57,065 nt of DNA, taken from IMG/VR virus record IMGVR_UViG_3300018416_002064, positions 1 to 57,065 of that record; one strand, 5' to 3'. Of the stretch, positions 2,228-46,167 are shown in pieces. A program made the translations under genes and the position numbers. Source of the stretch: a virus. The notes beneath the pieces are model-generated. The model did no database searches. It saw nothing but the letters and a program-made list of their open reading frames with translations, and was not told the DNA's origin. The first letter of the stretch is position 1. Each line of letters opens with the position of its first letter.

Positions 2228-3820
2228 TTAAGGCCTATATTGTAGTGTTATGAAGTATTCTAATCCACCTGCTCTGTAGTTAGGTACTAATTCAAATTCA
2301 TCATTTAGTATATCTCTTACAGTAAATGATAGCAAGTATTTAGGAATAACTTGCCTTTCGATTTTGTAGTCAATTGAACTTACATCATCTAGCATTTCTG
2401 TACCATCGTATGGACCAGGCGTTCTGTTAAACAATCCAGTATATCTAAATGAAATATCATAACCACCTAAGTAAGTTGTAGATGATATGATTGCTTTGTA
2501 TTCGGGAATACGTGGTTGATCAGAGTTTGTGTATCCTAACTCAATACCTACTAGAGTAGTATTAAGTCTTTCAACAACAAAACTGTTTACATATCTAACA
2601 CCTTCAGTGTCGTATGATCCAGTGTTAACAAACTGTGAGTCTGCAAAACTATAATCAATACCTTCACTAAATTTGTATTTGAATACTGTAAAGTTCTTGT
2701 ATCCAATCTCTCCACCTACTGCTTCTTCAGGGTCTAAACTTTTATTAGGTAAAGTCCAAGCATCACCGTTCAGTTCATAAAGAGTTGGGTTACGATATGA
2801 TGTACCGAAACTACCAAACCAATTATTAGATTCTGCACCTATACGATATACAAATGCATCTTCACTTAATCTAAAACCTAGATCAAACAGATCGAATGAT
2901 GTTAAAGAGTAAACTGATAATTGAGTTTGGCTAAAGTCTTCATACTTTTCATTTTCAGCAGTTGCACCCAGTAATGTGTTTCCAACTTGATGTCTAGTAT
3001 CTGCATAAAATCTTTCCGCATCACTCTTATATGTTTCTACACTTTCTGTTTTATAGTTAGCATTGTTAAATGAGTAACCGAATGTGTAGTTATCATTCCT
3101 TATTGATAAGGAACCTTTATCTCCTGATTGTACGCAATCATTTGACTGTGAGAAACTTGCAGTATAGCAGTTATCATAGTCATACTCGTATGATGTACCT
3201 GATAGATTTACTTTCCAGTCACCGAATTCTTTCTGTCCTTTGACCGTTAAATTGTTATAACTATCCTTTTCATCGTTGTCTGTTCTAACACTATCATTCT
3301 TTGCATCAAAGTAACTTAGATTAAAACCACTACCTGTGTGACTTACAAATGTATTACTACCATATCTGATAATAGATCCATCTTTAAGATCATCAGTAAT
3401 AAAAATAGCACCACCTAAACTACCAGAACCATATAGGACTGAAGTTGGACCATTGACTATTTTTACATTTTCGTTTCCAGTAGCAAAGTCATGACCAAAA
3501 TCATACCATCCGCTACCTGCATCATTAGCAGGTACACCGTTTCTGAAAATAGTCGTGTGAATCGTTTGTGTTCCTCTTTCTGTATAACCTAAAAAAGAAC
3601 CATAACCACCTGAAGTTGTTGCTTCGGGTATAATTGATTCTAATACGTTAACATCAGTCGAAGGATCTGATTCTGTTTCATATATGGTTGCGCCTGTGAC
3701 TACTACTTCTTCGATCTCCTGTGCTTGTACTTCATTTGCTACTATCATTAGTAACATAAATACTACCACTGCATAAAGTGGAGCAAAGTTGATGTGGAAG
3801 TTTTTGTTTTCTTCTTTCAT
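2228..3820 (-). CDS. TonB-dependent outer-membrane receptor-like protein
   Basis: A 530-aa protein that looks bacterial rather than phage-like. Residues 1-33 form a signal peptide (hydrophobic VVVFMLLMIVA, then VQAQ). It is followed by a TonB-box-like EEVVVTG (37-43) and a plug-like domain containing FRNGVPANDAG and VLYGSGSLGGAIFI (128-141), the classic plug signature. The rest consists of alternating aromatic/polar beta-strand-like segments ending FITLQYRP. Family members normally have 600-900 residues, so the barrel may be short; the usual terminal Phe/Trp is replaced by Pro. It has its own late-type promoter and overlaps the upstream gene by ATGA. Family assignment is firm; its role in phage biology is unknown. 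Confidence 0.85.
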   Translation of the reverse strand: MKEENKNFHINFAPLYAVVVFMLLMIVANEVQAQEIEEVVVTGATIYETESDPSTDVNVLESIIPEATTSGGYGSFLGYTERGTQTIHTTIFRNGVPANDAGSGWYDFGHDFATGNENVKIVNGPTSVLYGSGSLGGAIFITDDLKDGSIIRYGSNTFVSHTGSGFNLSYFDAKNDSVRTDNDEKDSYNNLTVKGQKEFGDWKVNLSGTSYEYDYDNCYTASFSQSNDCVQSGDKGSLSIRNDNYTFGYSFNNANYKTESVETYKSDAERFYADTRHQVGNTLLGATAENEKYEDFSQTQLSVYSLTSFDLFDLGFRLSEDAFVYRIGAESNNWFGSFGTSYRNPTLYELNGDAWTLPNKSLDPEEAVGGEIGYKNFTVFKYKFSEGIDYSFADSQFVNTGSYDTEGVRYVNSFVVERLNTTLVGIELGYTNSDQPRIPEYKAIISSTTYLGGYDISFRYTGLFNRTPGPYDGTEMLDDVSSIDYKIERQVIPKYLLSFTVRDILNDEFELVPNYRAGGLEYFITLQYRP

Positions 3821-7000: not shown

Positions 7001-8077
7001 CTATTCCTCTACAGTTTCTAATACGTCTTCTTCGTTATTTACATTATCCAACGCAGTTTTAACTTCAGAGTATTCTGACATAAGCATATCCAAACACCCG
7101 TCTTCATTTGCTTCCCAAGGCTTTCTAAACTTGAGAACTTCTTCACCAGATTGAGTGATATACTTTAAACGATTGCCTTGCTTAGTTAGTAAGCCTGATT
7201 TCTCAAACAAATCAACTAAACCAGAATAGGGATTCATACCTGTTTCATAAGGAATCTTCACTTGCACACCCTCGAAAGGTTTTGCATAACGAGTCTTCAT
7301 TACTTTACAACCTGCACGAATACCTCTGACATCAGAGATTTTATTTCCTGCGGCGTCTTCTTTTAGTTTCATTTTCTTCATAGCAACTACGATACTTGAT
7401 GCATAGATAAAGCCTTGACCACCAGAGATTTTATCGTCTGGGTCAAACATATCTTGTGATGCATATGTATGATTAGTTGCAACGAGTCCAACGTTATAAC
7501 TACCGAACATGTTAACTGAGTTCCTAACTAAAGCAGTCAATGCCTTAGGCTTACGACCCATGTCACCTTTCATATCACCTTTGTCAAATTGATCAACATC
7601 AGTTGGGGTCAGTAACATACCCAATGAGTCAATTACAAATAACACTTTAGGACGTTCTTCGTCTGCCATGTCTTTATAATCTTTCATAAAGGTTGAGATA
7701 GTTTTTGCTACATCGTCAATCATACTCATGCTCAACTTCAAAAGTTTTTCTTCTGAAGTATCGACACCCAATGCATGTAGCCAAGTTTCATCAAGTGCAT
7801 TCTCTGAGTCAATTAAGACTACAAAGATGCCCTGATCCTGTGCTGACTTTACAATGTTGCCTGCGGCGAAATATGATTTACCTGCGCCTGATTCTCCTGC
7901 AAATACAGTAACCTTACCTAAAGGAACACCTCTGTGAAAATCACCTGAGATAAGATAGTTGAGTGCATAAGAACCCGTTGAGATCCAGTCTGTTGGATCA
8001 TTGAATCCTATTGACAAGCCGTCAATGGATTTGGTTATGTCTTTCCTAAATTTGGAAACGTCAAATGGTTTTGCCAC
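7001..8077 (-). CDS. uvsX: UvsX recombinase (RecA/Rad51 family)
   Basis: 358 aa. Walker A GESGAGKS (61-68), Walker B LFVID (146-150), followed by a segment resembling the DNA-binding loops (NHTYASQDMFDPDDKISGGQ). T4 UvsX polymerises on single-stranded DNA and catalyses strand exchange for replication and repair. The start is GTG at 8077 with AGGAG 6 nt upstream. The C-terminus is acidic, as in many RecA relatives. It lies in one block with uvsY and gp32, its working partners. Confidence 0.95.
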   Translation of the reverse strand: MAKPFDVSKFRKDITKSIDGLSIGFNDPTDWISTGSYALNYLISGDFHRGVPLGKVTVFAGESGAGKSYFAAGNIVKSAQDQGIFVVLIDSENALDETWLHALGVDTSEEKLLKLSMSMIDDVAKTISTFMKDYKDMADEERPKVLFVIDSLGMLLTPTDVDQFDKGDMKGDMGRKPKALTALVRNSVNMFGSYNVGLVATNHTYASQDMFDPDDKISGGQGFIYASSIVVAMKKMKLKEDAAGNKISDVRGIRAGCKVMKTRYAKPFEGVQVKIPYETGMNPYSGLVDLFEKSGLLTKQGNRLKYITQSGEEVLKFRKPWEANEDGCLDMLMSEYSEVKTALDNVNNEEDVLETVEE

Positions 8078-25229: not shown

Positions 25230-25237
25230 TATTTATT
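25230..25237 (-). promoter_or_regulatory. Late-promoter-like octamer, leaderless spacing, glycosyltransferase-like gene
   Basis: AATAAATA on the minus strand ends 5 nt before the ATG at 25224 (intervening ATGTC). It overlaps the stop region of the DegT gene. Confidence 0.55.
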
Positions 25238-26345
25238 AAGGCTCATAAAAAATGCAAACTTGATTTGCAACTTCTTCGACTTCTGCATCAGTTAATTCAG
25301 GATACATAGGCAAACTTAATAATGATCGGGTAAGTAATACACTTGTAGCCATCAAGTCTGGTTTTTCTAAATTTTCTGCAATAGGGTGTTCACTTAATGC
25401 TTGTTTATAATGTATTTTAGTTTCTATATTTTTACTATTTAACCATGCTTCTAAATGCTGACGTTCCGCTCTAGCATTAACTACAAACTTTGAATCAGCA
25501 TGTATGTCAAACCCTTCACTTAAACATTTTAATGATTGGATATGTTTAAATCTGTCTATGTAGTATTTTCTAATTTGTTTTCTACGTTCTTGCCATTCAT
25601 CTATATACTTTGCTCTTACTAACAAATGAGAACAATCTAGTTCACTCATTTTAGAATTTGTTCCAGAATAAAAATGATAAGGTTTTCCATTGTCTCTCCA
25701 TTGCGTAGCAAATTCATATAAGGCTTGGTTATTAGTAACAATGGCTCCACCATTGCCCGAAGCATTTAAATTTTTAGTAGGGTCAAAACTAATTGCCATT
25801 GCAGTTCCTATGTTACCGTCTGCAATTAACCAATGTTGTGCTCCGTCTATAATTGCAACATTATTGTTTAATACTCCAATACCATTATCACTTTCTACTG
25901 CTACAGTTGGTGCACCGAATAAACCAACATGACATTCAATTTTTTGTAATTGATCTTCTGGTTGAGGTAGAATGATTCCATTTGAATCTGTATCTGCCAA
26001 TTCTACATTTAATCCAGCACTTAAAAATGCATTCATTGTTGCGGGGTATGTTAGATTAGGAACTCTAATTGTTCGATATGATTCTTGGTCGTAATCCCAT
26101 TTAGTAAATGGATCTTGGTCCGGAGACGTATCTCTTTCGTAACGTGCAATAATTTCTAATGCTTGAGTTCCACTATGACACAGTATGACAAATTCAGCCT
26201 TTGTTTTTATTGATAACCAATCTGTAAATTTCTGTGAATACTCACCGTCATTAAGACCGCCACTAGAAAGAACTGAATCAGTCGCATCAAGCAATTCATC
26301 TTTAAGATTTTTGTATTGTCTGTCTAATCCAAAATACTTAATCAT
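25236..26345 (-). CDS. DegT/DnrJ/EryC1/StrS-type sugar aminotransferase
   Basis: 369 aa, full family length. The N-terminus (MIKYFGLDRQYKNLKDELLD) and CHSGTQALEI match the family. FDPTKNLNASGNGGAIVTNN near residue 190 carries the PLP-binding lysine. These enzymes transfer an amino group to a nucleotide-linked keto-sugar. It overlaps the radical SAM gene by 8 bp and is co-transcribed with the epimerase, which can supply the keto-sugar. Confidence 0.88.
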   Translation of the reverse strand: MIKYFGLDRQYKNLKDELLDATDSVLSSGGLNDGEYSQKFTDWLSIKTKAEFVILCHSGTQALEIIARYERDTSPDQDPFTKWDYDQESYRTIRVPNLTYPATMNAFLSAGLNVELADTDSNGIILPQPEDQLQKIECHVGLFGAPTVAVESDNGIGVLNNNVAIIDGAQHWLIADGNIGTAMAISFDPTKNLNASGNGGAIVTNNQALYEFATQWRDNGKPYHFYSGTNSKMSELDCSHLLVRAKYIDEWQERRKQIRKYYIDRFKHIQSLKCLSEGFDIHADSKFVVNARAERQHLEAWLNSKNIETKIHYKQALSEHPIAENLEKPDLMATSVLLTRSLLSLPMYPELTDAEVEEVANQVCIFYEP

Positions 26346-27555
26346 ATTCTTTTAACAGTGTATGCAAATCGTAGTTACAATCTGCTAGTCTCTGTCCTCT
26401 ATGATCATCTAACAAATTATTAAATTTAATATATTCTTGTAACATGTTTATGTCTTTGCTTTCTTCTTGGCACTTTTCTTTTAATGCGTTTATTGTATCT
26501 TTAAAAATCTGTGATTGCCATTTACAATCATTCAACATCCACATAAATATTTTTGCAAAGGCTTTTTGTTTAAAGTCTTTAGGCAAATAATCGATATTTA
26601 AATGTTGTGGATCTTGCAACAAAATCGGTCTAATATCAATTAACGGCTTGTTTTCTTTAACGTTGATGTCTTCAAAGTATTTAAACAGATCAACTATCTT
26701 GTTTAAATTTCCTATTTGAATGACAGGTGTTGCCCACAATTTAACATTGTGCATTTTAATAAGTTTGTGTATGCTTTCATCAATTTGACTAAACTTGCTA
26801 GGATATCTCAAATACTCTTGTACTTCTCCGTAACCATCGATACTTAATTGTAAGATAACTGATTTGAAGTTGGGTAGATACTGATAAAATCTTGGATTAG
26901 TATTTGTAAGATTTGTATTGATAATTAAAGTAATATCTTTACTTTTGTCTGTTTTAATCAAATCACGTAATATTTCAAAGTTTTTTTCGATAACAGTGGG
27001 CTCTCCACCTGTCATATAAATTGTGTCTATGTTGTCTACTTGACTTTTAATATTTTCATCAAACGTATCTGTCTCCCACCAGTAGTTACTTTCTACATCA
27101 AACTGCGGATAAAATCTAGTGTACTCTGTATTATTAATTTCTAAAATTTCTTTTTCTATTTGACTGCTGTTTGTAGGATTACAACTTCTGCATTTTAGAT
27201 TACATAGATTACCAAAACGTAAATCAAAAAATTTAATTTTAAGATCACTTTTAGTTGTAGTAGGTATGATGTCTTTGTATTGTTCGTTGTTAATTAGTCT
27301 GCGACTTTGACGACCATACTTTTCATTATGATAGCAAACATCACATCCAGAAATATATTCATTGTTCAACATCTTTTGTCTTAACTCTATAAAGTTTTGA
27401 CTGTTATAGATGTCATCAATACTATCGTAGCCTAAATTAAATTTAGTGCCATCTTCTTTTTTAATATAGTCGTGTGAAATACAACAAGGCTTGATTGCGC
27501 CGTCCGGGTCAACCGTAATGTTTACCCAAGGTAAAACACAAAATGACTCCGTCAT
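26338..27555 (-). CDS. Radical SAM protein of the twitch-domain type
   Basis: 405 aa. The N-terminal part has CVLPWVNITVDPDGAIKPCC and a later CDVCYH, a SPASM/twitch-like auxiliary cluster site placed before the core. The radical SAM motif CNLKCRSC (CX3CX2C) and TGGEPT follow. Family members use an auxiliary [Fe-S] cluster in unusual C-H or sugar chemistry, often in surface-glycan clusters of phages and bacteria. ATGA overlap with the epimerase gene. Substrate unknown. Confidence 0.85.
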   Translation of the reverse strand: MTESFCVLPWVNITVDPDGAIKPCCISHDYIKKEDGTKFNLGYDSIDDIYNSQNFIELRQKMLNNEYISGCDVCYHNEKYGRQSRRLINNEQYKDIIPTTTKSDLKIKFFDLRFGNLCNLKCRSCNPTNSSQIEKEILEINNTEYTRFYPQFDVESNYWWETDTFDENIKSQVDNIDTIYMTGGEPTVIEKNFEILRDLIKTDKSKDITLIINTNLTNTNPRFYQYLPNFKSVILQLSIDGYGEVQEYLRYPSKFSQIDESIHKLIKMHNVKLWATPVIQIGNLNKIVDLFKYFEDINVKENKPLIDIRPILLQDPQHLNIDYLPKDFKQKAFAKIFMWMLNDCKWQSQIFKDTINALKEKCQEESKDINMLQEYIKFNNLLDDHRGQRLADCNYDLHTLLKEYD

Positions 27556-28670
27556 TTTTTCGGCTTTGCTTTTGCTCTAGGTTTTCTTGTTGTTTTAGGC
27601 TTTGTTGGCTTTGTCTTAACATTAGTAACTTTTGCTGGAGCAACTTTAACTTCTTGTTTAGGTTTAGGATTAAATTGTTCTTGCCAATAAGCAGAGTTTT
27701 GTAGCCAGTTATAATAAACCATTAAGCCTTCATTTAGATTTGTAACTGGATTAAAGTTGAAATCGTTTTTTGCTTTTTCGATACTTAATGCGCCTCTGCT
27801 AGGGAAATTGTTATCTTTTTGTTTGACTTCAATATTACCTTTTCCTACTATTTGTTTAACCATTGTTGCGGCATCATAAAGTGTTACACCCTGTGATTTA
27901 GTAAGATTATATGTTTCATTTTTTGCTTTAGCACTTGTTGTTGCTTGTACAATACCAGTTGCAACATCATTTACAAATGTAAAATCTAATTTCTCCATCT
28001 TGCCATTAACAACAATTTTTTCACCTTTGATTGCATTGTAAAAGAATTTAGATATAACTCTATCACACACATCTAAAGGACCGTACACAGCACTAGGACG
28101 AATAATAGTATGATTTAATCCATATTGCCTAGTGTAATCTTGCACTAACAACTCTCCAGCATACTTCATAATTGCATACTGACCTTTGGGTATGCAGTCT
28201 TCCCATTCTTCAACGCCATCTGAAAAATCTCCGTATACCATTGAAGAACTGATATATGTAAAACGATCTACTCCTGTTGTCCTACTTAGTTCTAATAAGT
28301 TTAACAAACCTTCACTCATTACTTTAGAGCCAGCAGTTGGATTGTTATTGACTACTTTTTGTCTAGGGAAACTTGCAAGATGAATTACGGCATCAAACTT
28401 TTCTTTTTCAAATAAAGTTTTTAGTTCAGGGTTAGCAACATCAATCGTGTAGATGTTTAAATTGGTAGCGCCAGTCATTCTACCTGCTATACCAAAAAAT
28501 CTTTCTTTTGTTACAGCATCCAATTCGTCTTGGTCTATGATACCATAATCTGTTTTAGTATCTAAAATAGCAATATCATGTCCTTCGTTAATTAATTTAA
28601 CTACAACATGGGCACCGATAAATCCTAATCCACCTGTTACGCATATGTTTAATTTTTTCTTACGTGCCAT
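27552..28670 (-). CDS. NAD-dependent epimerase/dehydratase (extended SDR)
   Basis: 372 aa. Glycine motif GGLGFIGAHV (14-23), a YxxxK pair (YAIMK) for catalysis and a TYISSSMVYGD segment place it in the nucleotide-sugar epimerase/dehydratase family. The last 40 residues are a Lys/Pro/Thr-rich basic tail (TKPTKPKTTRKPRAKAKPKK) not part of the fold, which may bind DNA, membrane or capsid. First gene of the sugar cassette. Confidence 0.87.
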   Translation of the reverse strand: MARKKKLNICVTGGLGFIGAHVVVKLINEGHDIAILDTKTDYGIIDQDELDAVTKERFFGIAGRMTGATNLNIYTIDVANPELKTLFEKEKFDAVIHLASFPRQKVVNNNPTAGSKVMSEGLLNLLELSRTTGVDRFTYISSSMVYGDFSDGVEEWEDCIPKGQYAIMKYAGELLVQDYTRQYGLNHTIIRPSAVYGPLDVCDRVISKFFYNAIKGEKIVVNGKMEKLDFTFVNDVATGIVQATTSAKAKNETYNLTKSQGVTLYDAATMVKQIVGKGNIEVKQKDNNFPSRGALSIEKAKNDFNFNPVTNLNEGLMVYYNWLQNSAYWQEQFNPKPKQEVKVAPAKVTNVKTKPTKPKTTRKPRAKAKPKK

Positions 28671-34639: not shown

Positions 34640-35224
34640 TTAAGGTTTGTCGTACCAACGTATATAGATCATTGTTACAGCATTGTTGTCGTTTTGATAG
34701 TACTGATGACCTAGATTCATGTTATGAGCAAACAATTTATTATTAGTCAAAGTTTCTCTTACGCCTCTATTCCATATGTCTGGCCACTCGTCTGTATATG
34801 ATACTTGAAATTCTGAATTTACGTCAGCATCACTTAAAGTAAAAAATGTAATCCATTGTTTAGTAGGATCGTCAAAGTTTTCTATAGGATTGTAATCTTT
34901 ATGCCAACGACCTGATGTGTGCATTGGATCTATTTGATTGTCTATCAACACTCTATAATTATAGATGACTGGGCGTTCTAAGTAAGGCTTTAATTGTAAC
35001 TGAATTAAATCGATTAGTTCTCCCATAGAGTCAGGAAGCAAACGTTTAACTATTGAATTGTCATCATATCGATTGTAAAGAGTAGGGTTTGTTTTGTCTT
35101 TTAATAGATCACCGTTTGGATTAATCAAATACCCAGGGTAATCAATGAGCGGTTTGTCATCTGATACACGTTGTAAGAGATCAGCATTTAAAAATTGATC
35201 AGTAAAGAAATACTCGGTGTTCAA
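34640..35224 (-). CDS. Possible 2OG-Fe(II) oxygenase-like protein
   Basis: 194 aa. Middle segment GRWHKDYNPIENF gives an H-x-D (His-Lys-Asp), and HQYYQNDNNAVTMIYIRWYD near the C-terminus supplies a possible second His and an Arg, as in the double-stranded beta-helix of Fe(II)/2-oxoglutarate oxygenases common in marine phages. The fit is by eye only. The start is a TTG overlapping the upstream stop as TTGA, so translation depends on coupling to the nucleotidyltransferase gene. Confidence 0.5.
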   Translation of the reverse strand: MNTEYFFTDQFLNADLLQRVSDDKPLIDYPGYLINPNGDLLKDKTNPTLYNRYDDNSIVKRLLPDSMGELIDLIQLQLKPYLERPVIYNYRVLIDNQIDPMHTSGRWHKDYNPIENFDDPTKQWITFFTLSDADVNSEFQVSYTDEWPDIWNRGVRETLTNNKLFAHNMNLGHQYYQNDNNAVTMIYIRWYDKP

Positions 35225-36630
35225 TAGATACCTTTGCCAAACTGAGTTTTAGGATTTTTAGTTTTCTTTTTGCCCGGTCTAACAAGTGGGGGACGACCAT
35301 CACGTTGAATATTACCTAGTCCCATTGCTTTTGCTTGTTTCTTCATTGTATCTGGATGAACATCTACAGTAAGGGCATAAGAAAATCTTGGATCGTTTCT
35401 TTGTGCTTCACTTGGAATGTATCCTGATGCTTCACCAATTGTGTCGAATGTTCGTTTTTTTGGACCAAAGTTCATGTATTTAATTTCAAACGGACCCTTA
35501 TGTCCTTTTGCTTTTAATCGGGCGATATGATCTTTAATTATATCTTCATCTGCATGTCTAACAGCCGGGGAGCCATTGACATACAAAGCATATTGATATT
35601 CTTCATTTACTTGAACTTCTACGTCATCTTTAGCACTTCTGTTTATTCTTTCAACTGCGGCTAAAAAACTAACCATCTTGTCATAATATTCTATATCTTT
35701 TGCAAGATTATTCATTGCTAGTTTATATGCTTCACCTTTATCTTTATTTGTCAGTTTCATTTCAAACTTGACAGCCTGATCGACATACTTAGCAACTTCC
35801 ATATTTTTCATGTTAAACTGTTTTGCTAACTGTTCTATTCCATCTTCGCCTTCTGCAATATTGACTTTGCTATTATAAACACCGATTGATTCTTCAAATG
35901 TTCTGCGTAGCAGTTCTTCTTCGATAGATAATTGTTCACCTCTTAACTTATTACGCAAATCAAATAGTGCTTGAAAGTATCCTTTGGATCTGATTGCCTT
36001 GAATGCTAAATTCTCAGGACCGAACTCTCCTTTCTTATCTAAGCCTGCTTGTCTATATCTTTTAATAATAGATAAAACATTGTTTACTTTATCGATGTCT
36101 TTTGACTTAAGACCTTCAATACACAGTTCTTCTAATCTTTCAAACTTATGTTCTGCTGAGATTTCATCTAAGTTTGCTCTTTGTTTACTAGGGAAACGAG
36201 TAAACTTATCTTGCATAAGACTATATTCACCTAAACTAGTATGTGCTTGTGCTGTGTCTTGTACGTATAACTCTACAGGAATACCTCTAACTGTAATATC
36301 ATATGTGTCGTTATATAAAGACTTTTTAGCATTGAATAATTCTTTATAAACATCTGACTCTGGAAGTTCTGCAAAATCTACAAGTAGATGCAAATCAATA
36401 TCCGAATGAGGAGTGTAAGTAAATGCAACATTACTACCAGTAATGATTACATCTTCTACAGCAAGATCAGGAATACCCATGAATTCTATAAAGTCATCAG
36501 TGATAATTTCTAATTGCTTTTTGATGTTTGGCTTCAATTTATTGTTTTCATCAAACAACAAAGGATTCAACTCATCATGGAAGTTGATCGCATCTTCAAT
36601 TTTGAATTTTTCTAGTTCAGATATGTTCAT
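35221..36630 (-). CDS. Nucleotidyltransferase-fold protein
   Basis: 469 aa. GSN (65-67) and HSDIDLHLLVD (75-85) form the active-site signature of the pol-beta-type nucleotidyltransferase fold, with D77 and D79 as metal ligands and a third acidic residue likely in GIPVELYVQD. A long helical region follows. The C-terminal 130 residues include a small domain ending in a basic Lys/Pro tail. Relatives add nucleotides to RNA, proteins or small molecules; some are toxin-like. No ribosome site: a late octamer ends 5 nt before the ATG. It is the first gene downstream of the tmRNA. Confidence 0.75.
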   Translation of the reverse strand: MNISELEKFKIEDAINFHDELNPLLFDENNKLKPNIKKQLEIITDDFIEFMGIPDLAVEDVIITGSNVAFTYTPHSDIDLHLLVDFAELPESDVYKELFNAKKSLYNDTYDITVRGIPVELYVQDTAQAHTSLGEYSLMQDKFTRFPSKQRANLDEISAEHKFERLEELCIEGLKSKDIDKVNNVLSIIKRYRQAGLDKKGEFGPENLAFKAIRSKGYFQALFDLRNKLRGEQLSIEEELLRRTFEESIGVYNSKVNIAEGEDGIEQLAKQFNMKNMEVAKYVDQAVKFEMKLTNKDKGEAYKLAMNNLAKDIEYYDKMVSFLAAVERINRSAKDDVEVQVNEEYQYALYVNGSPAVRHADEDIIKDHIARLKAKGHKGPFEIKYMNFGPKKRTFDTIGEASGYIPSEAQRNDPRFSYALTVDVHPDTMKKQAKAMGLGNIQRDGRPPLVRPGKKKTKNPKTQFGKGIY

Positions 36631-36635
36631 ATATC

Positions 36636-36643
36636 TATTTATC
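36636..36643 (-). promoter_or_regulatory. Late-promoter-like octamer, leaderless spacing, nucleotidyltransferase gene
   Basis: GATAAATA on the minus strand ends 5 nt before the ATG at 36630 (intervening GATAT), just past the tmRNA terminal hairpin. Confidence 0.6.
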
Positions 36644-36652
36644 GAAATAGGC

Positions 36653-36900
36653 GAGGGGCAAATAAATGCCCCTCTGGGTATTGGGTGACGAGGTTACCGT
36701 GAACCTCGGGGGACTAGGCCGCTAAGGCGTAGTCTTCCATTGTATAATCGTTGCCAATTATAGATTTGCTTGATTTACAGTCATCGCCTACTGTGTTGTC
36801 TGTTCAGTTACTGAGTCACCCTGTCGAATCCCTTACACCCCCTCTGCTGTTTATTGGTGGAGGTGGCCGGAGTCGAACCGGCGTCCAAAGCGCCTTTTAC
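36653..36900 (-). ncRNA. ssrA: Circularly permuted (two-piece) tmRNA
   Basis: Reading the minus strand: an acceptor piece comes first, with a T arm (GCCGG, loop TTCGACT, CCGGC) and a 3' end CACCTCCACCA ending at 36855. A 12-nt spacer follows (36843-36854), then the coding piece starting GGGGGTG at 36842 with the tmRNA hallmark GGATTCGAC a few bases later. GGGGGTG pairs with CACCTCC over 7 bp, including the G3-U70 wobble that alanyl-tRNA synthetase recognises. The tag frame ends YALAA. After it come a stem CGAGGTT/AACCTCG (36689-36708) and a terminal hairpin GAGGGGCA/TGCCCCTC (36653-36674). GGGTGAC (36815-36821) can also pair with GTCACCC (36683-36689). The 3'-half-first order is that of alphaproteobacterial tmRNA. 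Exact 5' end unknown. Confidence 0.88.
36714..36755 (-). other. tmRNA proteolysis-tag reading frame
   Basis: Thirteen codons plus TAG encode GNDYTMEDYALAA. It has the same length as, and the same YALAA end as, rhizobial tags such as ANDNNAKEYALAA. The resume codon is GGC (Gly) rather than the usual Ala codon. Such tags mark stalled nascent proteins for ClpXP-type proteases. Confidence 0.8.
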
Positions 36901-36920
36901 TTCACTTCATACAACAATAA

Positions 36921-37283
36921 TTAATCAAGTAGTTCTTTAATAACAAGAACTTTGATTACGGTATCTGCTACTTCATCTATATCATCTTTCAGATATCTGA
37001 CTTCAGTATGTACCTTATGTCTAGCATAACCTGTGTAGTAAGGAACTGCATTACTACCCATGTGTACCATAGTATTACCACGTCTTTGATGTGTATGCAT
37101 ACTATAGTGACGAGGATATTTTACAATCCTACCGTCAATAATACGAGTTGCACCCGTATATGCTGACTGTTTCTCACGCATGAGACGTTGGTCAGATTTT
37201 TCTGCTTCTACTGGACATGCAACCATAATTGCTAAAAACCCTACAATCAATGTTGTGCCCAACTGTCTGCCTGTTATCTTCAT
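36921..37283 (-). CDS. Small exported protein
   Basis: 120 aa from the second ATG (MKITGRQLG), chosen because AAAGGA lies 7-8 nt upstream of it. The N-terminus is a signal sequence (TTLIVGFLAIMVACPVEAEK); cleavage may occur after VEA, or Cys could be lipidated although the residue three before it is Met. The mature part is rich in His, Tyr and Arg (RHYSMHTHQRRGNTMVHMGS). A late octamer lies upstream with a proper leader. Function unknown; the tmRNA is the next element downstream. Confidence 0.6.
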   Translation of the reverse strand: MKITGRQLGTTLIVGFLAIMVACPVEAEKSDQRLMREKQSAYTGATRIIDGRIVKYPRHYSMHTHQRRGNTMVHMGSNAVPYYTGYARHKVHTEVRYLKDDIDEVADTVIKVLVIKELLD

Positions 37284-37307
37284 ACCCATATCCTTTTGCT
37301 GAGAATG

Positions 37308-38423: not shown

Positions 38424-39055
38424 TTTTTATAGACATGGAAAACGCCCTGACCTCTATCAGATCCTCGATACGATTCTAAATCAGTAATCAAATTATCAAA
38501 CTTCAAGCCTTGTGCTTCAGCCATATCAGATATATCTTCTCTAATGGTATGTGTCTCTGACAAAATTATATCACTGTTCGGTTCTAAGTAAGGACCAATG
38601 TTAGCAAAAAATTCTTTATGAAGTTTCCAGTCTGGATCAACTATTATTCTATACCAATGATCTTCCCAATTTTGAGGATTCTGTTCACTGTGCGGTGGAT
38701 TACCTACAACTAAATCAAATTTTAAATCTTTGGGTAATTTATGTACAGCATCTAAATGATATGCCTTTACTTTATCACTGACATTATTGTCTTTAGCATT
38801 TTGCAATACAGAATCAATCGCCGGCTCATATACATCCATAAATGTTATAGACTCACATATGCCTGCATCTAATAAACTAAAGCCAACTGCACCTAAACCT
38901 GAACACCACTCAAAACAGTGTTTATATGTTTTGCCACTTGATTTAAGGTATGTAAGAAAATCTTTGTATTGGGTAGAGCCTCCCCCGTCCATTTCTGGTT
39001 CATAATTAATAATTATACCGTTATCAAAAGTTAATGTTTGTGTTACATTACTCAT
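38420..39055 (-). CDS. N6-adenine/RsmC-like methyltransferase
   Basis: 211 aa. SAM-binding region HCFEWCSGLGAVGFSLLDAG and catalytic NPPH motif (LVVGNPPHSEQN), the (N/D)PPY/H signature of amino-group methyltransferases acting on adenine, guanine in RNA, or protein glutamine. Few extra domains, so the target is unclear. The start overlaps the stop of the giant gene (TAATG). Confidence 0.75.
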   Translation of the reverse strand: MSNVTQTLTFDNGIIINYEPEMDGGGSTQYKDFLTYLKSSGKTYKHCFEWCSGLGAVGFSLLDAGICESITFMDVYEPAIDSVLQNAKDNNVSDKVKAYHLDAVHKLPKDLKFDLVVGNPPHSEQNPQNWEDHWYRIIVDPDWKLHKEFFANIGPYLEPNSDIILSETHTIREDISDMAEAQGLKFDNLITDLESYRGSDRGQGVFHVYKN

Positions 39056-42000
39056 TAATATGAAACCTCTTCGTATCTTTCTTTAAGCCACTCCCACTCA
39101 TAACTTAAACGTAACTTTTCAAAGTCACCATCAACTTCATTGAAGTATTCTTCTCCGTCTAATGCACCTTTGATTGATTCTTGGAAGAAAGGCTGATCTG
39201 GATCTGCTTCGTTCAACCATGCTTCTAATCGTTTCTTACTAATCTCTGTATCATCAACTAATAACTTAATAACTTCTCTAAATGCTGTACGCCATGTAGA
39301 GAATTCATCTGTGTTATACTGTGCGATGCCTGATAGTAAAGGCACACTTGCATGTTCATCATCTAACGTAAAGTCTAAGCCATAACCATAGTTCTTAAGT
39401 GTTAAGTCTTTGTTATACGCAATCATAGCCTGATGTCCATAGACTAATCCATTGACTGGATTCTTTGCTTCAAAGATATAATGCTTAGGTTGTTGCATTC
39501 TATCTGGTTGCCAGTTAAAGTCAAACTTGGGCGATACTTTTAGTTTAGCAAATACAGTAAACGCCCAAGGTGTTTCACTTGCTTCTGCTGATGCGTGATA
39601 TGCTTGTACACGACCATCAACACCATCTACTCTTACTACTCTGTTTGGTACATTTTTTGTAATTTTTTGCAGATGTTCCCAATTTTCCTCTGCTCCTTTC
39701 TCTCCGTTTGATAAGAAAACAATATCCATAGGCTTCGATAACGCAAGTCTATTGGCATTTTTAATATATGGGTATTCGTATAGTTCTCTCTTTACATGAT
39801 CTTTTACTTCACGTGGAACTATAATTCTAGTTGCTCCTGTAGATTGTACTATGATGTTTTTAGACTCTGCTGTCCATAATGACATAGGTTCTTCATCAAC
39901 TACTTGTATATCTTCATCTGTTTTAGACACTAGAGTTACATAAGGAAACTCGTCTATATCTTTTAACGTCTTTGTATGTGTATCACTCTCAGAAACGATT
40001 ACAGGCGCTCTCAGACGTTGTGTACGCAACGTTTGATTGTAGTTTATCTTCTCATAGTCTTCTAATGATTCCATGTTGTCGATCAAATCACGTGTTTTAT
40101 TAACGTCAATAAAGAATGTATCTCCAAACTTTTGTTTACTGCTTGGAAACACATGCAATTGGTCACGTGCAAATGGATCGCATATATAAGAGAAGTCAAA
40201 GTCACTGTAATCACAGATTGAGGATGCTATCCATATGTGATGTTCTTTACGTTTAGGTTGATCTTTAACAATCTTTTTCAACGTAGTAAGATAATCTGTG
40301 TCATGTTCGATAGTACTTACACGTTGTCTTGGTGCTTTGTCTTGTAGTTGCTTAACAACTGCTTCTGTTTGTTTATTCCCATGATCGACAACTACAATAT
40401 CGTATACACATTCAGTGGCTACTGCTCTGTTTTCTTTTACAAAGTTTAAGTTGTCTAAGTGTTCGATGACATTAATGTATTTGGTGTCTTCATTAAATGT
40501 TTCTCTGTTAACCAGGTATGTTGTACCCCAATGCGACCATTGTGTACCGAACACATGTACCATTTTCATTTGCCATGGGTTAGGATAATAATTAAAATCA
40601 AATTCTTCGTAATCTAATTCTGAATTTAAGATCCAAAGTAAACTTGTTGTTGATCTGTTTATACATCTGCGAGTAGTTTCTACCCATGAGTTTAAGTATC
40701 TTGTTTTTTGTATGTTGGGATATCTCTCCTGTAATTTTGCAAATCGTTCTTTTGCTTCTTTGTTACCTCTATCAACATAGAACATATCTAAGTTGGCTTG
40801 TATTTCTCCTATAGAATCAGTCTCAACATAGTTAATTGTTGCATCTTTAAAGATTGCTGAGTTCACAAAATATGTTTGCGTGTTGATATTATCTTTAGAA
40901 CCGAACGCATGAATATAATTAGATTGATACACATCAGGTCTCCAACTAAAGTCAAAGTCTGTGTAAACTAAATCCATATTCAATGCCCAGAATACTTCGT
41001 TTGGATGCTGTGCTACTAAATCTTCTAAAGTTGTTTCAATAAAGTAAACATCGATTTCGTCAGGTATTACATTGTCTGATTCAACGTTTTGTAAATATAA
41101 TACTTTGCCATCATTGCCGGGTTGTACATACTTAGGACCGTCATCTTTACCTGCTGTACTACCGAACTGATAGATTGCAGGATCTGCTGTATCATCTGGG
41201 TGCCACGAAAAGTCAAACTTGCTAACGTCTAAGTCACCGGGCACTACCCAATGCAGACGTTTACTGTTTGCTAACTTACGTGCTTTAATAATTCTTGTAT
41301 CAACATACTTGATGTCTTTTGCACCGGGCACTGTATATGTTGGTCCACCTGTCTTTTGATGCTGTGTACCAAATTGATAAATGAACGGATCATCTTCTGC
41401 GTATGGATGCCAACTAAAGTCAAAGTCTTCGATATCTGTCGGGACTTTCCAGTTTGTTCTGTCACCTGTATCTAATGAGTACGCAACTGGTTGCTCAATA
41501 TACTTGACTTTAGTAGCACCTTGAACTGTATACTTTGGACCACCTGTTAGTGCCCACTGAGTACCGAACTGATAAATGAAGGGCTCGTCTAAGATATCTG
41601 GATGCCATGAGAAATCAAATCCTTCAACATCAATGCCTTCTGGTATTTCCCAGTTCTTTTTGTTTGGTAATTTGTGAGCAATATTTCCTTCTACATATTT
41701 TACTTCAGTTGCACCCTCAACAATAAACTGCGGTCCACCTGTCTTTTGCCACTGCGTACCAAACTGATAAATGTATGGTTGATCTTCAAGCGGAGATGGT
41801 CTCCAACCAAAGTCAAAATCTTTTGTATCTACATCATCAGGTATAATCCAATCTTCATCGTTTTCTTCTAATTGTGCAACTACATCGTGTACATACTTAA
41901 CAGACTCTGCACCTATAACTCTATATTCGATAGTAGGCATTTCTTCTGCTGAATAAAACTTGTTACCAAACTGATAAATGAATGGCTCGTCTGTTTCATC

Positions 42001-44622
42001 GTGGTGCCAACTGTAGTCAAAGTCTTTAATTTTATAGTTACCTAACGTTCCCCAATGTCTATTGTTGGGGTCAGGTAATCTTTTTGATTTTATAATACGT
42101 GTGTCAATATACTTGACAGCACTCCCTTCATGTGCGCCGGGTGTGATGTATTTGTGTCCACCTGTCTTTTGCCATTGAGTGCCAAACTGATAGATAAACG
42201 GCTCATCTTCTGCATAAGGATGCCATGAATAGTCGAAATCATCTTCATCAATTAATTTAGGATCAAACTCCCAATTGTCTTTACACGGCAATGCTTTTGA
42301 TACTTGATCTTCTACGTATTTTACTTCTTCTGCACCCTCAACCGTATAAACAGGTCCGCCACTTAGTGCCCATTGAGTAGGAAATCTATAAATGTAAGGT
42401 GGACTTGTTGCATCTGGATGCCAACTGTAATCAAATTTATCACTATCGATATTTTCAGGCACAGTCCAGTTGTCTATTTTAGGTAATGCTTTTGCTTTAA
42501 ACTGTGTTTCATATTTTACTTCAGTTGCTCCTTCTACATGATATCTTGGACCACCAGTCTTTTGCCATTGCGTACCAAACTCATGTATCATTGCTGGTTC
42601 GTTAGGATTAGGTTTCCAACTAAAATCAAACTCACTTACGTCTATGTCTTCTGGTATCTCCCAGTTTGTTTTATCATGTCCTAATGTTGCTATCAAGTCA
42701 TTAACATAACTAACTTCGTCTGCTCCAATGACTCTATACTCTAACGTAGGCATTTGTTCAGCAGGATAATATTGATTACCAAACTGATAGATAAATGGCT
42801 CTGATGTTTCATCGGGATGCCAACTAAAATCAAACCCTTTAATACAATAGTTATTCAATACTCTGAAACTATTTGGATCTGCTAGTCTAGTTGCTTTTAA
42901 AATTCTTGTATCGATATATTTGATAGCACTGCCTTCATGTACACCTGGAGTAATATATTTTGGTCCACCTGTTTTTTGCCATTGAGTACCAAATTGATAA
43001 ATGTACGGCTCATCTTCTGCGTAAGGGTGCCAAGAAAAATCAAATGAATCTTCTTCGATTAACTTAGGATCAAATTCCCAATTATCTTTGCATGGCAATG
43101 CTTTTGCTACTTGTGAATCTACATATTTAATTTCTTCTGCATCATCACAACGATATACAGGACCACCTGACATAGCCCATTGAGTTGGAAAATGATAGAT
43201 GTATGGTACAGGTTCTGTTGAGTCTGGATGCCATGAGAAATCAAATTCACTTGTATCTATATTGTCAGGTATTTCCCACTTATCTTCGGTGGGTGTTGCA
43301 ATTGCGTAAAAAATATTTTGATATTTTGTTTCTGTTGCACCCTCTACAGTATAGATAGGTCCACCTGTCTTCTGATGTTGAGTACCGAACTCATGTATCA
43401 TAGCCGGCTCGTTAGGATTAGGTTCCCAACTAAAATCAAATGTATATTTTTGAATGTTGTCAGGTATTGTCCAGTTATCAGCACACGGCATACGTACAGT
43501 TGTTTCTGGCATAAACTGATATTCAGTTGCTCCTTCTACTTTAAACTCTATACTAACTTTATCTTCTGCTTTATTCCATTGATTTCCCCACGCATAGATA
43601 TAAGGTGGACTAGTAGGATTAGGTCTCCAACTAAAATCAAATTCATTCATGTCGATTTTTTCGTTAAACTCAAATAACTCTGGCTTTGACTTTAGTTTAG
43701 GTGTATATTCGGTAACATACTTGACTGCTTCTGCGCCTTCGACTTTGTATATAAGTGTAGGCATAATTGTACCATCGTATAATTGATTACCAAACACATA
43801 ATTAAATAGTTCTGTTTCGTTTGGATCAGGTCTCCATGTAAAGTCAAATGAATCTTCTTCAATTTCTTCTAACACTTCCCACACAGACATATCTACTGCT
43901 AAGTCTACTGGTTTATCAATGTACTTAATTGTACCGTCATTACCAGGTACATGATATTCTAAGATTGGTACTTGTTCTGCGGGTGCCCACTTGCTTCCCC
44001 ATACATAGATAAATGGCTCTGTGTCTAATGGGTCTGGACGCCATGTAAAGTCTACTTTACTTTCATCGATAGGTTCATTAATTTTCCACCTAGACATCTG
44101 TGGTTCAAGTTCGACAATAGTATCCATATACTTGACATGTCCTACATTATCAGGCGTATGATATTCTACAACACTTCTTTGTTCTGCTGTTGCAAATTTA
44201 CTTCCCCATACATAAATGTAGGGAGGATCTGTAGGGTCTGGATGCCATGAAAAGTCAAATTTACTCTCATCAATTGTGTCAAACAGTTTCCAGCATTGAT
44301 TTTTAATAGACTTGCGTTTGATGGGTGCAACATCTGCACGATAAACTCTGATATCACTTTGTTCTTTAGCACATAACCAAGTGCCTGAATCTTTTTGATG
44401 TTGACTAGGCCATATGTTGTTGTGTTCTTCTGCCCAAACGTCTTCATCTGGTAAAAAATCAAAATCAAATTCCCAATCAAATCCTGTGTAATCACAAAAC
44501 TCATTGATTATCCAAAAGTGATCTGTCGTGGCTTCTTTGCGAGCCTCATCTATATCGAAAACTTGTCGTTCTCTAGGGTGAACGTTTGGTTTTTCACCAA
44601 AGTAAAATACGTCTCTAAGCAT
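39055..44622 (-). CDS. Giant repeat protein, 1855 aa
   Basis: The protein is built from 21 recognisable copies of a module of roughly 65-95 residues with the core FDFSWHPDxxxPFIYQFGTQ and, in most, a following GGPxYTVEGATEVKYV strand. No signal peptide or membrane segment. Copies 1 and 18-21 are divergent. The last one (FDFNWQPDRMQQPKHYIFEA, then NPVNGLVYGHQAMIAYN) looks most like an intact domain; segments such as YDIVVVDHGNKQTEAVVKQL resemble nucleotide-sugar-binding folds. It sits beside carbamoyltransferase and glycosyltransferase-like genes, so a glycan-related scaffold or enzyme array is possible, as is a fibre. Function unknown. Confidence 0.75.
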   Translation of the reverse strand: MLRDVFYFGEKPNVHPRERQVFDIDEARKEATTDHFWIINEFCDYTGFDWEFDFDFLPDEDVWAEEHNNIWPSQHQKDSGTWLCAKEQSDIRVYRADVAPIKRKSIKNQCWKLFDTIDESKFDFSWHPDPTDPPYIYVWGSKFATAEQRSVVEYHTPDNVGHVKYMDTIVELEPQMSRWKINEPIDESKVDFTWRPDPLDTEPFIYVWGSKWAPAEQVPILEYHVPGNDGTIKYIDKPVDLAVDMSVWEVLEEIEEDSFDFTWRPDPNETELFNYVFGNQLYDGTIMPTLIYKVEGAEAVKYVTEYTPKLKSKPELFEFNEKIDMNEFDFSWRPNPTSPPYIYAWGNQWNKAEDKVSIEFKVEGATEYQFMPETTVRMPCADNWTIPDNIQKYTFDFSWEPNPNEPAMIHEFGTQHQKTGGPIYTVEGATETKYQNIFYAIATPTEDKWEIPDNIDTSEFDFSWHPDSTEPVPYIYHFPTQWAMSGGPVYRCDDAEEIKYVDSQVAKALPCKDNWEFDPKLIEEDSFDFSWHPYAEDEPYIYQFGTQWQKTGGPKYITPGVHEGSAIKYIDTRILKATRLADPNSFRVLNNYCIKGFDFSWHPDETSEPFIYQFGNQYYPAEQMPTLEYRVIGADEVSYVNDLIATLGHDKTNWEIPEDIDVSEFDFSWKPNPNEPAMIHEFGTQWQKTGGPRYHVEGATEVKYETQFKAKALPKIDNWTVPENIDSDKFDYSWHPDATSPPYIYRFPTQWALSGGPVYTVEGAEEVKYVEDQVSKALPCKDNWEFDPKLIDEDDFDYSWHPYAEDEPFIYQFGTQWQKTGGHKYITPGAHEGSAVKYIDTRIIKSKRLPDPNNRHWGTLGNYKIKDFDYSWHHDETDEPFIYQFGNKFYSAEEMPTIEYRVIGAESVKYVHDVVAQLEENDEDWIIPDDVDTKDFDFGWRPSPLEDQPYIYQFGTQWQKTGGPQFIVEGATEVKYVEGNIAHKLPNKKNWEIPEGIDVEGFDFSWHPDILDEPFIYQFGTQWALTGGPKYTVQGATKVKYIEQPVAYSLDTGDRTNWKVPTDIEDFDFSWHPYAEDDPFIYQFGTQHQKTGGPTYTVPGAKDIKYVDTRIIKARKLANSKRLHWVVPGDLDVSKFDFSWHPDDTADPAIYQFGSTAGKDDGPKYVQPGNDGKVLYLQNVESDNVIPDEIDVYFIETTLEDLVAQHPNEVFWALNMDLVYTDFDFSWRPDVYQSNYIHAFGSKDNINTQTYFVNSAIFKDATINYVETDSIGEIQANLDMFYVDRGNKEAKERFAKLQERYPNIQKTRYLNSWVETTRRCINRSTTSLLWILNSELDYEEFDFNYYPNPWQMKMVHVFGTQWSHWGTTYLVNRETFNEDTKYINVIEHLDNLNFVKENRAVATECVYDIVVVDHGNKQTEAVVKQLQDKAPRQRVSTIEHDTDYLTTLKKIVKDQPKRKEHHIWIASSICDYSDFDFSYICDPFARDQLHVFPSSKQKFGDTFFIDVNKTRDLIDNMESLEDYEKINYNQTLRTQRLRAPVIVSESDTHTKTLKDIDEFPYVTLVSKTDEDIQVVDEEPMSLWTAESKNIIVQSTGATRIIVPREVKDHVKRELYEYPYIKNANRLALSKPMDIVFLSNGEKGAEENWEHLQKITKNVPNRVVRVDGVDGRVQAYHASAEASETPWAFTVFAKLKVSPKFDFNWQPDRMQQPKHYIFEAKNPVNGLVYGHQAMIAYNKDLTLKNYGYGLDFTLDDEHASVPLLSGIAQYNTDEFSTWRTAFREVIKLLVDDTEISKKRLEAWLNEADPDQPFFQESIKGALDGEEYFNEVDGDFEKLRLSYEWEWLKERYEEVSY
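39500..44500 (-). repeat. Coding tandem repeats with a four-module super-repeat
   Basis: Within the giant gene, modules 6-9, 10-13 and 14-17 follow the same order of subtypes: EPAMIHEF or similar, an SGGP/TGGP type, a YAEDxPxIYQFGTQ type, then an AEQM-type or end module. The YAED anchor begins at 43011, 42204 and 41391 on the plus strand, spacings of 807 and 813 bp. This points to two rounds of block duplication after the single modules had diverged. Confidence 0.85.
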
Positions 44623-44631
44623 ATTATATAC

Positions 44632-46167
44632 TTATGAAATTACGCGGGTCTTGTAAAGTTTTTCAAATCGATCTGCGTCGGATCTATCATTAACCATGGG
44701 CTCACCTCGTACATTTAATGATGTGTTTAACAAGATAGGACATCCTGTTTCTTTGTACCATGCTTCTAACAATCTACGAATACCTGTACCGTCATTTGGA
44801 ACTGTTTGTACTCTACTTGTGCCGTCTTTATGTACAATAGCAGGGAACTTTTTAGGATACTTACAAGGTGCTGTAACTTGCATATAAGGTGAGTTGTTCC
44901 AATGCGTCGGCATTTCAAAATATTCATCTACAAGTTCTTCTAGTATCATAGGAGCGAACGGTCTAAACTGTTGTCTCTTTTTAATCTTGTTTACTTCTGA
45001 TTTTATCTTTGATCCTCTTGGGTCTGCTAGTAATGATCTAGTTCCCAATGCTCTAGGACCGAACTCAGCACGTCCAGAGGCTATCCCCACAATCTTATCT
45101 TCTTTTAGTGCTTTAACAGTTTCAACAACAGGATAAACACCTACAATATCTGTACCTAAAAATGCGTTTTTCCAATTTAATTTTTTGCCGTAGCCCAATG
45201 CCGCGGCTCCTAATGAATTACCTGCATCACCTGGATTAGGCATAATCCAAATGTTCTCAAAGTATTGACCTAAAAATCTATTAGCAGAACAGTTAAGTGC
45301 GACTCCTCCGCCATAGACTAAGTTGTCACTCTTGTTTAATTGTCTTGCTTTGCTCATTACTATCTTAATAAGTTTTTCTACGTATACTTGTGCTGATGCG
45401 GCTATGTCGAACTCATCTGCACCTTCTAAGAATGAATCGTCAATACCAATGTGTGTATTTTCTTTAAACAACAATGAATCTGTGTGGGCGCCGAACTTAT
45501 CTTCTATGTCTTTAACATATTTAGGCTCACCATATGCGGCCATACCCATTAAAATGTATTCTTCATCTAGTGGGCGTAAACCTAATCTTGCTGTCATTGC
45601 ACTATAGTATAATCCAATAGAGTTAGGATACTTAAGTGTCCACAACTTTTTATATTTTGCTTTGCCTTTTTTATTGTAATAACCTTTCCAAATAGTAGCA
45701 CAATCATTTTCACCGATCGCATCTATAATAACTATAGTTGCTTCATCAAAAGATGATGTTTGAAAACTGGCTGCCGCATGACATTTGTGATGAGGGTGCG
45801 TTTGAACAAAGTGAGGTATATGTCCGTCATGCATAAAATGACCCCATTGTTTTGTAACTCTTTCATATAGAGTATTGTATATGTCAGTACCAAAAATGTC
45901 TGAAAAATTAAATGGTCCTAACTTTTGACCTGCTCTAAACTGGCGCCAGGCTTTTACCCAAGGTCGTTCATAATAGTTTACAAATAACCGGTCGCCGTTA
46001 TCTACCCATTCTAATGCTTCATCGATAATTTCAGGACACAACTCTGAGTCATGTTTCTTTTTACTATATCGTTCACTGTGACCTGCAAATAAAATGTCGC
46101 CGTTGTCGTCTACCAAAGATACGCCGGCATCATGGAATCCGCAACTAATGCCTAAATATTTTTTCAT
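44632..46167 (-). CDS. NodU/CmcH-type carbamoyltransferase
   Basis: 511 aa. N-terminal ASKHA-fold signature GISCGFHDAGVSLVDDNG, then HPHHKCHAAASF (metal/carbamoyl-adenylate site) and the C-terminal RAEFGPRALGTRSLLADPRG typical of the YrdC-like carbamoyltransferase half. Enzymes of this family transfer a carbamoyl group from carbamoyl phosphate to a hydroxyl of a sugar or antibiotic precursor. It is coupled by ATGA to a 49-aa basic protein and lies between the giant repeat protein and an SGNH protein. Confidence 0.92.
   Translation of the reverse strand: MKKYLGISCGFHDAGVSLVDDNGDILFAGHSERYSKKKHDSELCPEIIDEALEWVDNGDRLFVNYYERPWVKAWRQFRAGQKLGPFNFSDIFGTDIYNTLYERVTKQWGHFMHDGHIPHFVQTHPHHKCHAAASFQTSSFDEATIVIIDAIGENDCATIWKGYYNKKGKAKYKKLWTLKYPNSIGLYYSAMTARLGLRPLDEEYILMGMAAYGEPKYVKDIEDKFGAHTDSLLFKENTHIGIDDSFLEGADEFDIAASAQVYVEKLIKIVMSKARQLNKSDNLVYGGGVALNCSANRFLGQYFENIWIMPNPGDAGNSLGAAALGYGKKLNWKNAFLGTDIVGVYPVVETVKALKEDKIVGIASGRAEFGPRALGTRSLLADPRGSKIKSEVNKIKKRQQFRPFAPMILEELVDEYFEMPTHWNNSPYMQVTAPCKYPKKFPAIVHKDGTSRVQTVPNDGTGIRRLLEAWYKETGCPILLNTSLNVRGEPMVNDRSDADRFEKLYKTRVIS

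Follow-up and report, generated by a model that had tools for sequence, protein, structure and literature searches.

The locus at 36916-36650 on the minus strand of the window (the whole stretch of 57,065 nucleotides of IMG/VR virus record IMGVR_UViG_3300018416_002064 that was analysed) raises the question of which type of two-piece tmRNA is carried there and what use a phage would make of it. Virus-borne two-piece tmRNA genes as such are already known: in excerpts of PMC9004378, 402 phages gave 133 unique tmRNA structures, 53 of them two-piece by ARAGORN. Excerpts of two further papers counted 79 phage tmRNA sequences and introduced the RF04321 model (PMC11915505), and gave one tmRNA for the Sinorhizobium jumbo phage AP-J-162 (PMC11242549). 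Overall, we consider it likely that the element in the window is a functional-looking, phage-resident two-piece tmRNA of beta type in a probable jumbo-phage fragment, most likely freeing ribosomes in infection. The evidence behind this explanation is the sequence, the conserved pairing, the conserved tag end and the conserved locus; for transcription, processing, charging, partner proteins and role we reason from established tmRNA biology.

Structure of the tmRNA gene

The minus strand at 36916-36650 holds a complete permuted (two-piece) tmRNA gene. The Rfam model tmRNA_permuted (RF04321) was matched over its full length at 36916-36714 (-) with 128.4 bits (cut-off 47, E 8.1e-25) and the beta_tmRNA model (RF01850), also over its full length, at 36959-36650 (-) with 118.7 bits (cut-off 84). 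Independently, ARAGORN found no tRNA in the window and called one permuted tmRNA, whose tag is GNDYTMEDYALAA. These matches bore out a sequence-only reading that had described a phage-encoded two-piece tmRNA at 36653-36900; the right element had been found, but the paired 5' strand of the acceptor half extends to 36916, 16 nt past the stated limit of 36900, and the strand, left unstated there, is the minus strand.

The acceptor (tRNA-like) half (36855..36916 with a provisional 5' limit, minus strand as for all following parts) was delimited by the RF04321 alignment and a script and comes first, with its CCA end at 36855. The coding (mRNA-like) half (36650..36842 in the RF01850 alignment, predicted 3' end at about 36650-36653) comes second, and a 12-nt spacer (36843..36854), lost in the predicted processing, lies between the CCA and G1 (36842). 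The 3' strand of the acceptor stem, CACCTCC (36859..36865, containing U70), pairs with the 5' strand GGGGGTG (36836..36842) at 7/7 positions, G-U counted, and an RNase P cut is predicted before G1. The T-arm GCCGGTTCGACTCCGGC was located at 36866..36882. This order, the 7-bp stem with its G3-U70 pair, the ends at CCA 36855 and G1 36842 and a tag ending in YALAA had all been named in the sequence-only reading and were recovered here, the ends at the same positions.

Conservation was followed in a close phage clade of seven members, namely the window and loci L042, L038, L021, L024, L028 and L225 (L numbers are locus labels). The G3-U70 pair was retained in all seven aligned members. The P2 helix joins 36912..36916 of the acceptor half to 36794..36798 of the coding half by five base pairs; it was paired in 7/7 members and one pair had changed on both sides. 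A hairpin of the form CAGU-loop-ACUG upstream of the tag (36778..36793) had 100% of cells paired and both-side changes in 2/4 pairs. The tag frame GNDYTMEDYALAA* (36714..36755) opens with the resume codon GGC (36755-36753), with UAAUU just before it, and its stop ends at 36714. The 3' hairpin CGAGGTT...AACCTCG (36689..36708) had 91.7% of cells paired and no pair changed on both sides. The terminal hairpin GAGGGGCA...TGCCCCTC (36653..36674), which is without a T run, had 92.9% of cells paired and both-side changes in 3/8 pairs, and the terminator scan made no terminator call at it. Just past this hairpin, at 36640-36653, CGCC and TTTC were invariant in 7/7 members, followed by GATA in 6/7. Finally, RNAalifold paired the tag-side hairpin with a region beyond the terminal hairpin, a fold which competes with the helices named above.

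Conservation of the RNA and its tag

In alignment A1 (MAFFT, the seven clade members), 96.9% of cells were paired under a 42-pair structure drawn partly from the Rfam alignment and partly from the window. Pairs with changes on both sides numbered 10 against a mean of 3.5 in shuffles (0/500 as high), and further pair types numbered 17 against 12.7 (3/500 as high). Slid versions of the structure reached at most 60.4% of cells paired and two both-side-changed pairs, a comparison that favours the structure on cells paired because it was derived from one of the aligned sequences.

The tag end MEDYALAA was conserved in 7/7 members. In the last nine tag codons including the stop, all five variable sites were synonymous (simulated chance 0.0004, ancestry ignored). 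The tag front varied within the clade (GND.., DNN.., DKNN..), and the N-terminal part of the tag was unlike the bacterial tags sampled. As judged from the alignment, the tmRNA gene is evolutionarily maintained, with selection visible in the pairing and in the tag end.

The tmRNA finder that supplied loci for comparison demands a paired acceptor stem, a paired T-stem and TCCACC, so the pairing of its loci is no evidence by itself. A G at position 3, which is not a requirement of the finder, was present in all 128 loci with a match, many of them duplicates. The finder missed L254 and L266, which were found by Rfam, L236, L238 and L151, which had scored above cut-off in other searches, and the pattern loci L011, L138 and L141.

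The resume codon was GGC (Gly) in the window and L042 and GAC (Asp) in the other five clade members; ARAGORN also gave an Asp resume codon for the viral locus L014 outside the clade. Among bacterial permuted tmRNAs, all 50 called by ARAGORN (55 loci given) resumed at Ala. The Gly codon, earlier remarked on as an oddity, is thus unusual among two-piece tmRNAs, but excerpts of PMC1168896 list Gly in 30 tmRNA sequences and Asp in 3, and novelty was no longer claimed for it. The bases at -5 (U) and -4 (A) relative to the resume codon of the window correspond to U85 and A86, the frame-setting positions of Escherichia coli (PMC2481249, excerpt). For two viral tag groups, ARAGORN gave tags beginning with V; their frame is probably wrong, and they were left out.

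Genome context and the conserved locus

The phage genes of the window include a terminase, a UvsX-like recombinase, a single-strand-binding protein and a helicase. A 122-aa ORF (36921..37289, minus strand) stops 4 nt short of where pairing in the tmRNA begins and had no family above a curated cut-off; tblastn gave a match to it in L024, L038 and L042 and none in L021, L028, L222 and L225. Directly downstream of the tmRNA lies a 469-aa gene (35221..36630, minus strand; phrog_36119, unknown function), which adjoins the tmRNA in seven further loci (L021, L024, L028, L038, L042, L222 and L225). A 1855-aa gene (39055..44622, minus strand) served as the upstream marker of the locus. Elsewhere in the window, a Nol-like carbamoyltransferase gene was present at 44632-46167, and 25236-28670 contained a run of genes for aminotransferase-like, radical SAM and nucleotide-sugar epimerase proteins.

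Viral contigs were searched independently of the tmRNA, with the last 481 residues of the 1855-aa protein as query; this returned 28 loci, including near copies (L258-L262 with L265; L256 with L268; L246 with L247). Three of the 28 end too soon to be judged (L243, L244 and L264). A permuted tmRNA was present downstream of the 1855-aa gene in 21 of the 25 testable loci, in 19 by the finder and in L254 and L266 by Rfam. In the DNA examined at the other four (L246, L247, L248 and the distant L269; Rfam run on L246, L248 and L269) a tmRNA was not found, so the phage group can do without a tmRNA at those loci. In L246 and L247, which belong to close relatives of the window phage, the conserved gene is followed by a tRNA array. 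No relative of the 1855-aa protein was found in 50,697 records of named phages, either with the whole protein or with the C-terminal 481 residues.

Contigs in the set of 28 loci reach 333, 259, 250 and 244 kb, and a terminase relative on a 524-kb contig has a tmRNA beside the same 1855-aa-type gene. Because related contigs reach 333 kb and 524 kb, the window is probably a fragment of an uncultured jumbo-phage genome.

Proposed role in infection

By analogy with established tmRNA biology, the RNA would be made as a single precursor, probably co-transcribed with neighbour genes. Promoter-like sites numbered 5 against 7.0 expected from shuffles, i.e. none above chance, and a dedicated tmRNA promoter was dropped; since, in addition, the upstream ORF ends at 36921, co-transcription seems likely. 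Host tRNA-processing enzymes would then cut at G1 (36842) and after the CCA (36855), with loss of the 12-nt spacer, and the acceptor stem and P2 would hold the two pieces together. Host alanyl-tRNA synthetase would charge the acceptor half via G3-U70, and SmpB would deliver the tmRNA to ribosomes stalled on cut mRNA. SmpB was found neither in the window nor in a further 16 phage records (among them several fragments, the 524-kb contig and Sinorhizobium phage Phosso), so a phage-carried SmpB was dropped and the tmRNA would depend on that of the host. Translation would resume at GGC, so that Ala and GNDYTMEDYALAA would be appended as a ClpXP-type degradation tag. The most likely role would be to keep ribosomes free while host mRNA is destroyed during infection; a use in ribosome rescue, also proposed in the sequence-only reading, is plausible. 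Excerpts of PMC9004378 carry the suggestion that a viral tmRNA helps to keep the machinery taken over by the phage in working order, or marks host proteins so that they can be recycled.

Other roles were weighed against this one. The tmRNA might act as a decoy or re-tagger that competes for host SmpB or alters the fate of tagged proteins for the benefit of the phage, instead of adding rescue capacity. The difference between the N-terminal part of its tag and the sampled bacterial tags would suit such a role, and a tmRNA of phage DS6A, which is without a tag frame, inhibits the host tmRNA in E. coli (PMC11915505, excerpt). However, the tag frame is intact here, MEDYALAA is kept in 7/7 members, which suits ordinary degradation, and the frame-setting bases are retained; this role is accordingly regarded as unlikely. 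It is highly improbable that the gene is a passive, functionless piece of a host chromosome picked up during integration at a tmRNA gene: prophages and islands do integrate at host tmRNA genes (PMC9004378 and PMC11915505, excerpts), but both halves are complete, double changes preserve the pairing, and this covariation disfavours a remnant, the locus is common to a wide phage group, and no PHROGs match named integrase was obtained among 29 window proteins and one C-terminal part, a subset of the ORFs.

Type of the tmRNA

The sequence-only reading had assigned the tmRNA to the alphaproteobacterial type and proposed the Rfam alpha model as the check. With that model (RF01849) the window scored 37.6 bits, below the cut-off of 50, and with the cyanobacterial model (RF01851) 54.1 bits, below the cut-off of 70; the beta model was passed by all seven clade members, the window among them. 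The T-loop of the window is TTCGACT; in alpha-type bacterial rows the loop was GGCGGTA in 32/39 and TTCG occurred in 0/39.

For a maximum-likelihood tree, 66 tmRNAs were aligned over 198 columns with their halves placed in mature order; the rows were hand-picked from tmRNA-finder loci, including loci found via the 1855-aa gene, with bacterial rows assigned to alpha or beta by their T-arm and by the search of origin. In this tree, all 22 alpha-type bacterial rows, Phosso and four related phages formed one side of a 100/96 split, with the window, the 10 beta rows and all remaining viral rows on the opposite side. The window lay inside the seven-row phage clade (98/97), which was on the beta side, yet not nested among the 10 beta bacterial rows. 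Long-branch warnings concerned the pairs L007/L009 and L018/L026. For L258 and L009, the model type was at odds with the side of the tree: both pass the alpha model but sit across the 100/96 split from the alpha rows. A pattern scan of named genome contigs gave 11 matches, all betaproteobacterial by title or genus, in a scan that alpha stems such as CGCCTCC could not match because the pattern required the acceptor stem of the window. Among the 11 are Rhodocyclus, Azospira and Accumulibacter, which we take to be Betaproteobacteria.

On these comparisons the tmRNA of the window is of betaproteobacterial type and not alpha, an assignment resting on model score and exclusion from alpha because the tree does not nest the clade in the beta rows. 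The alpha reading could draw on the permuted order, common to both types, on the weak alpha match that still exists and on alpha-type tmRNAs at the same locus in some related phages (L251, L252, L253, L254 and L222), but it is ruled out by the model scores, the T-loop and the 100/96 split, and next to no credence was left to it. Against the betaproteobacterial permuted tmRNA itself (RF01850), which the window matches over the full length above cut-off, the phage clade differs by its Gly or Asp resume codon in place of Ala and by its position outside the sampled beta rows.

The only named phages that matched the tmRNA stretch of the window were of Menderavirus (67 bases, 80.6%, 16 records); the annotation beneath the 16 matches was none in 10, tmRNA in 4 and tRNA-OTHER in 2. 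The Stenotrophomonas Menderavirus phage L002, the one phage scanned and with a presumably gammaproteobacterial host, has a permuted tmRNA at 3005-3256 (+) that passed the beta model with 92.1 bits, like the window. It differs from the window in belonging to another phage group (about 160 kb), in the position of its tmRNA within a tRNA cluster and in a 56-nt spacer. Phosso, a Sinorhizobium jumbo phage, also has a permuted tmRNA and gave the top-ranked terminase match to the window among named phages (48.9%), but its tmRNA is alpha-type with a 410-nt spacer, whereas that of the window is beta-type with a 12-nt spacer. The Phosso tmRNA (L209; PV764938.1, 349596-350198 (-)) is unannotated in its record. 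The Methylophilales phage Melnitz and its relatives likewise carry a permuted two-piece tmRNA. According to excerpts of PMC9004378, that of Melnitz is closer to alpha tmRNAs, although the host OM43 is not alphaproteobacterial, and is accompanied by a glutamine riboswitch; in contrast, the window as a whole gave no riboswitch above the Rfam cut-offs. Since known phages such as these carry a tmRNA type at odds with their host group, tmRNA type does not identify the host, and the earlier inference of a host group from the tmRNA was dropped.

Spacers between the halves

The spacers of 53 bacterial permuted tmRNAs measured 5-115 nt, against 410 nt in Phosso. Within the 12 tmRNA spacers examined, three held a complete ORF, i.e. 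a protein gene nested in a tmRNA gene: 122 aa at L223 850-1218 (-), 119 aa at L255 6625-6984 (+) and 26 aa at L221 2212-2292 (-). All three start at spacer base 13 after TAAGG and end 1 nt before the coding half, although a conserved TGAT or TAAT in front of the coding half may account for the shared end. The two long ORFs (L223 and L255) matched no PHROG and, at curated cut-offs, no Pfam family. In L250, a skipping-rope RNA (RF02924, 46.8 bits, cut-off 36.7) was found inside the permuted tmRNA spacer at 7955-8047, closed by a long predicted helix adjoining the acceptor stem; no further copies came from a pattern scan of viral contigs, from a DNA-similarity search of phages or, at E <=0.5, from 11 other loci. 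Finally, the 96-nt spacer of L224 contained two T-arm-like hairpins with GGTTCAATTCC and GGTTCGAATCC and gave no tRNA call.

Possible exchange of types at one locus

At the conserved locus, the beta model was passed by the window clade, L257, L263, L215 and L221 and the alpha model by L251, L252, L253, L254, L258, L266, L222 and L224. L224 was near-equal on both (74.5 bits alpha; 71.9 bits beta, under the beta cut-off). L250 and L255 passed RF04321 only, and L223, with a 382-nt spacer, matched RF04321 in two pieces, each below cut-off.

In the tree of flank proteins, the window clade grouped with the alpha-type phages and L250 (98/96). In the phage-only tmRNA tree it grouped with L221, L257 and others (97/95), and L250 and L258 were with the alpha-type phages. 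In AU tests, the flank data rejected the tmRNA grouping (p-AU 0.015) and the tmRNA data rejected the flank grouping (p-AU 0.020), with groups chosen after the trees were seen, row sets that differ (tmRNA 20, flank 15) and the alpha-type L254 and L266 absent from both. A first flank test (p 0.03), in which L250, L254, L255, L257, L258, L263, L266, L221 and L224 were held together, was set aside as it did not represent the conflicting grouping.

This mutual rejection of the tmRNA and flank groupings fits replacement of the tmRNA in place. The post hoc groups, differing row sets and short tmRNA alignment count against it, as does the placement of L258 on the beta side of the 66-row tree despite its alpha-model score above cut-off. 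Recombination in the flank gene would give the same conflict. We hold as tentative, and somewhat doubtful, the wider picture of an uncultured jumbo-phage group that keeps a tmRNA at one fixed locus and exchanges the RNA in place between alpha-like and beta-like two-piece types; on that view the phages would carry permuted tmRNA genes from one bacterial class to another over the long term, and in some members the spacer would have come to accommodate a further structured RNA or an entire protein gene. A fixed phage tmRNA locus with type swaps was not found among the titles and abstract beginnings listed for open-licence papers on phage or two-piece tmRNAs.

If real, the type swaps would amount to a natural experiment on which parts of a tmRNA must match the SmpB, synthetase and processing enzymes of the host, and they would also bear on a possible transfer, by phages, of permuted tmRNA genes from one bacterial class to another. 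For the phage group itself, the fixed place of this conserved, co-varying two-piece tmRNA in jumbo-phage genomes suggests a lasting role in ribosome rescue during infection, not an accident of integration.
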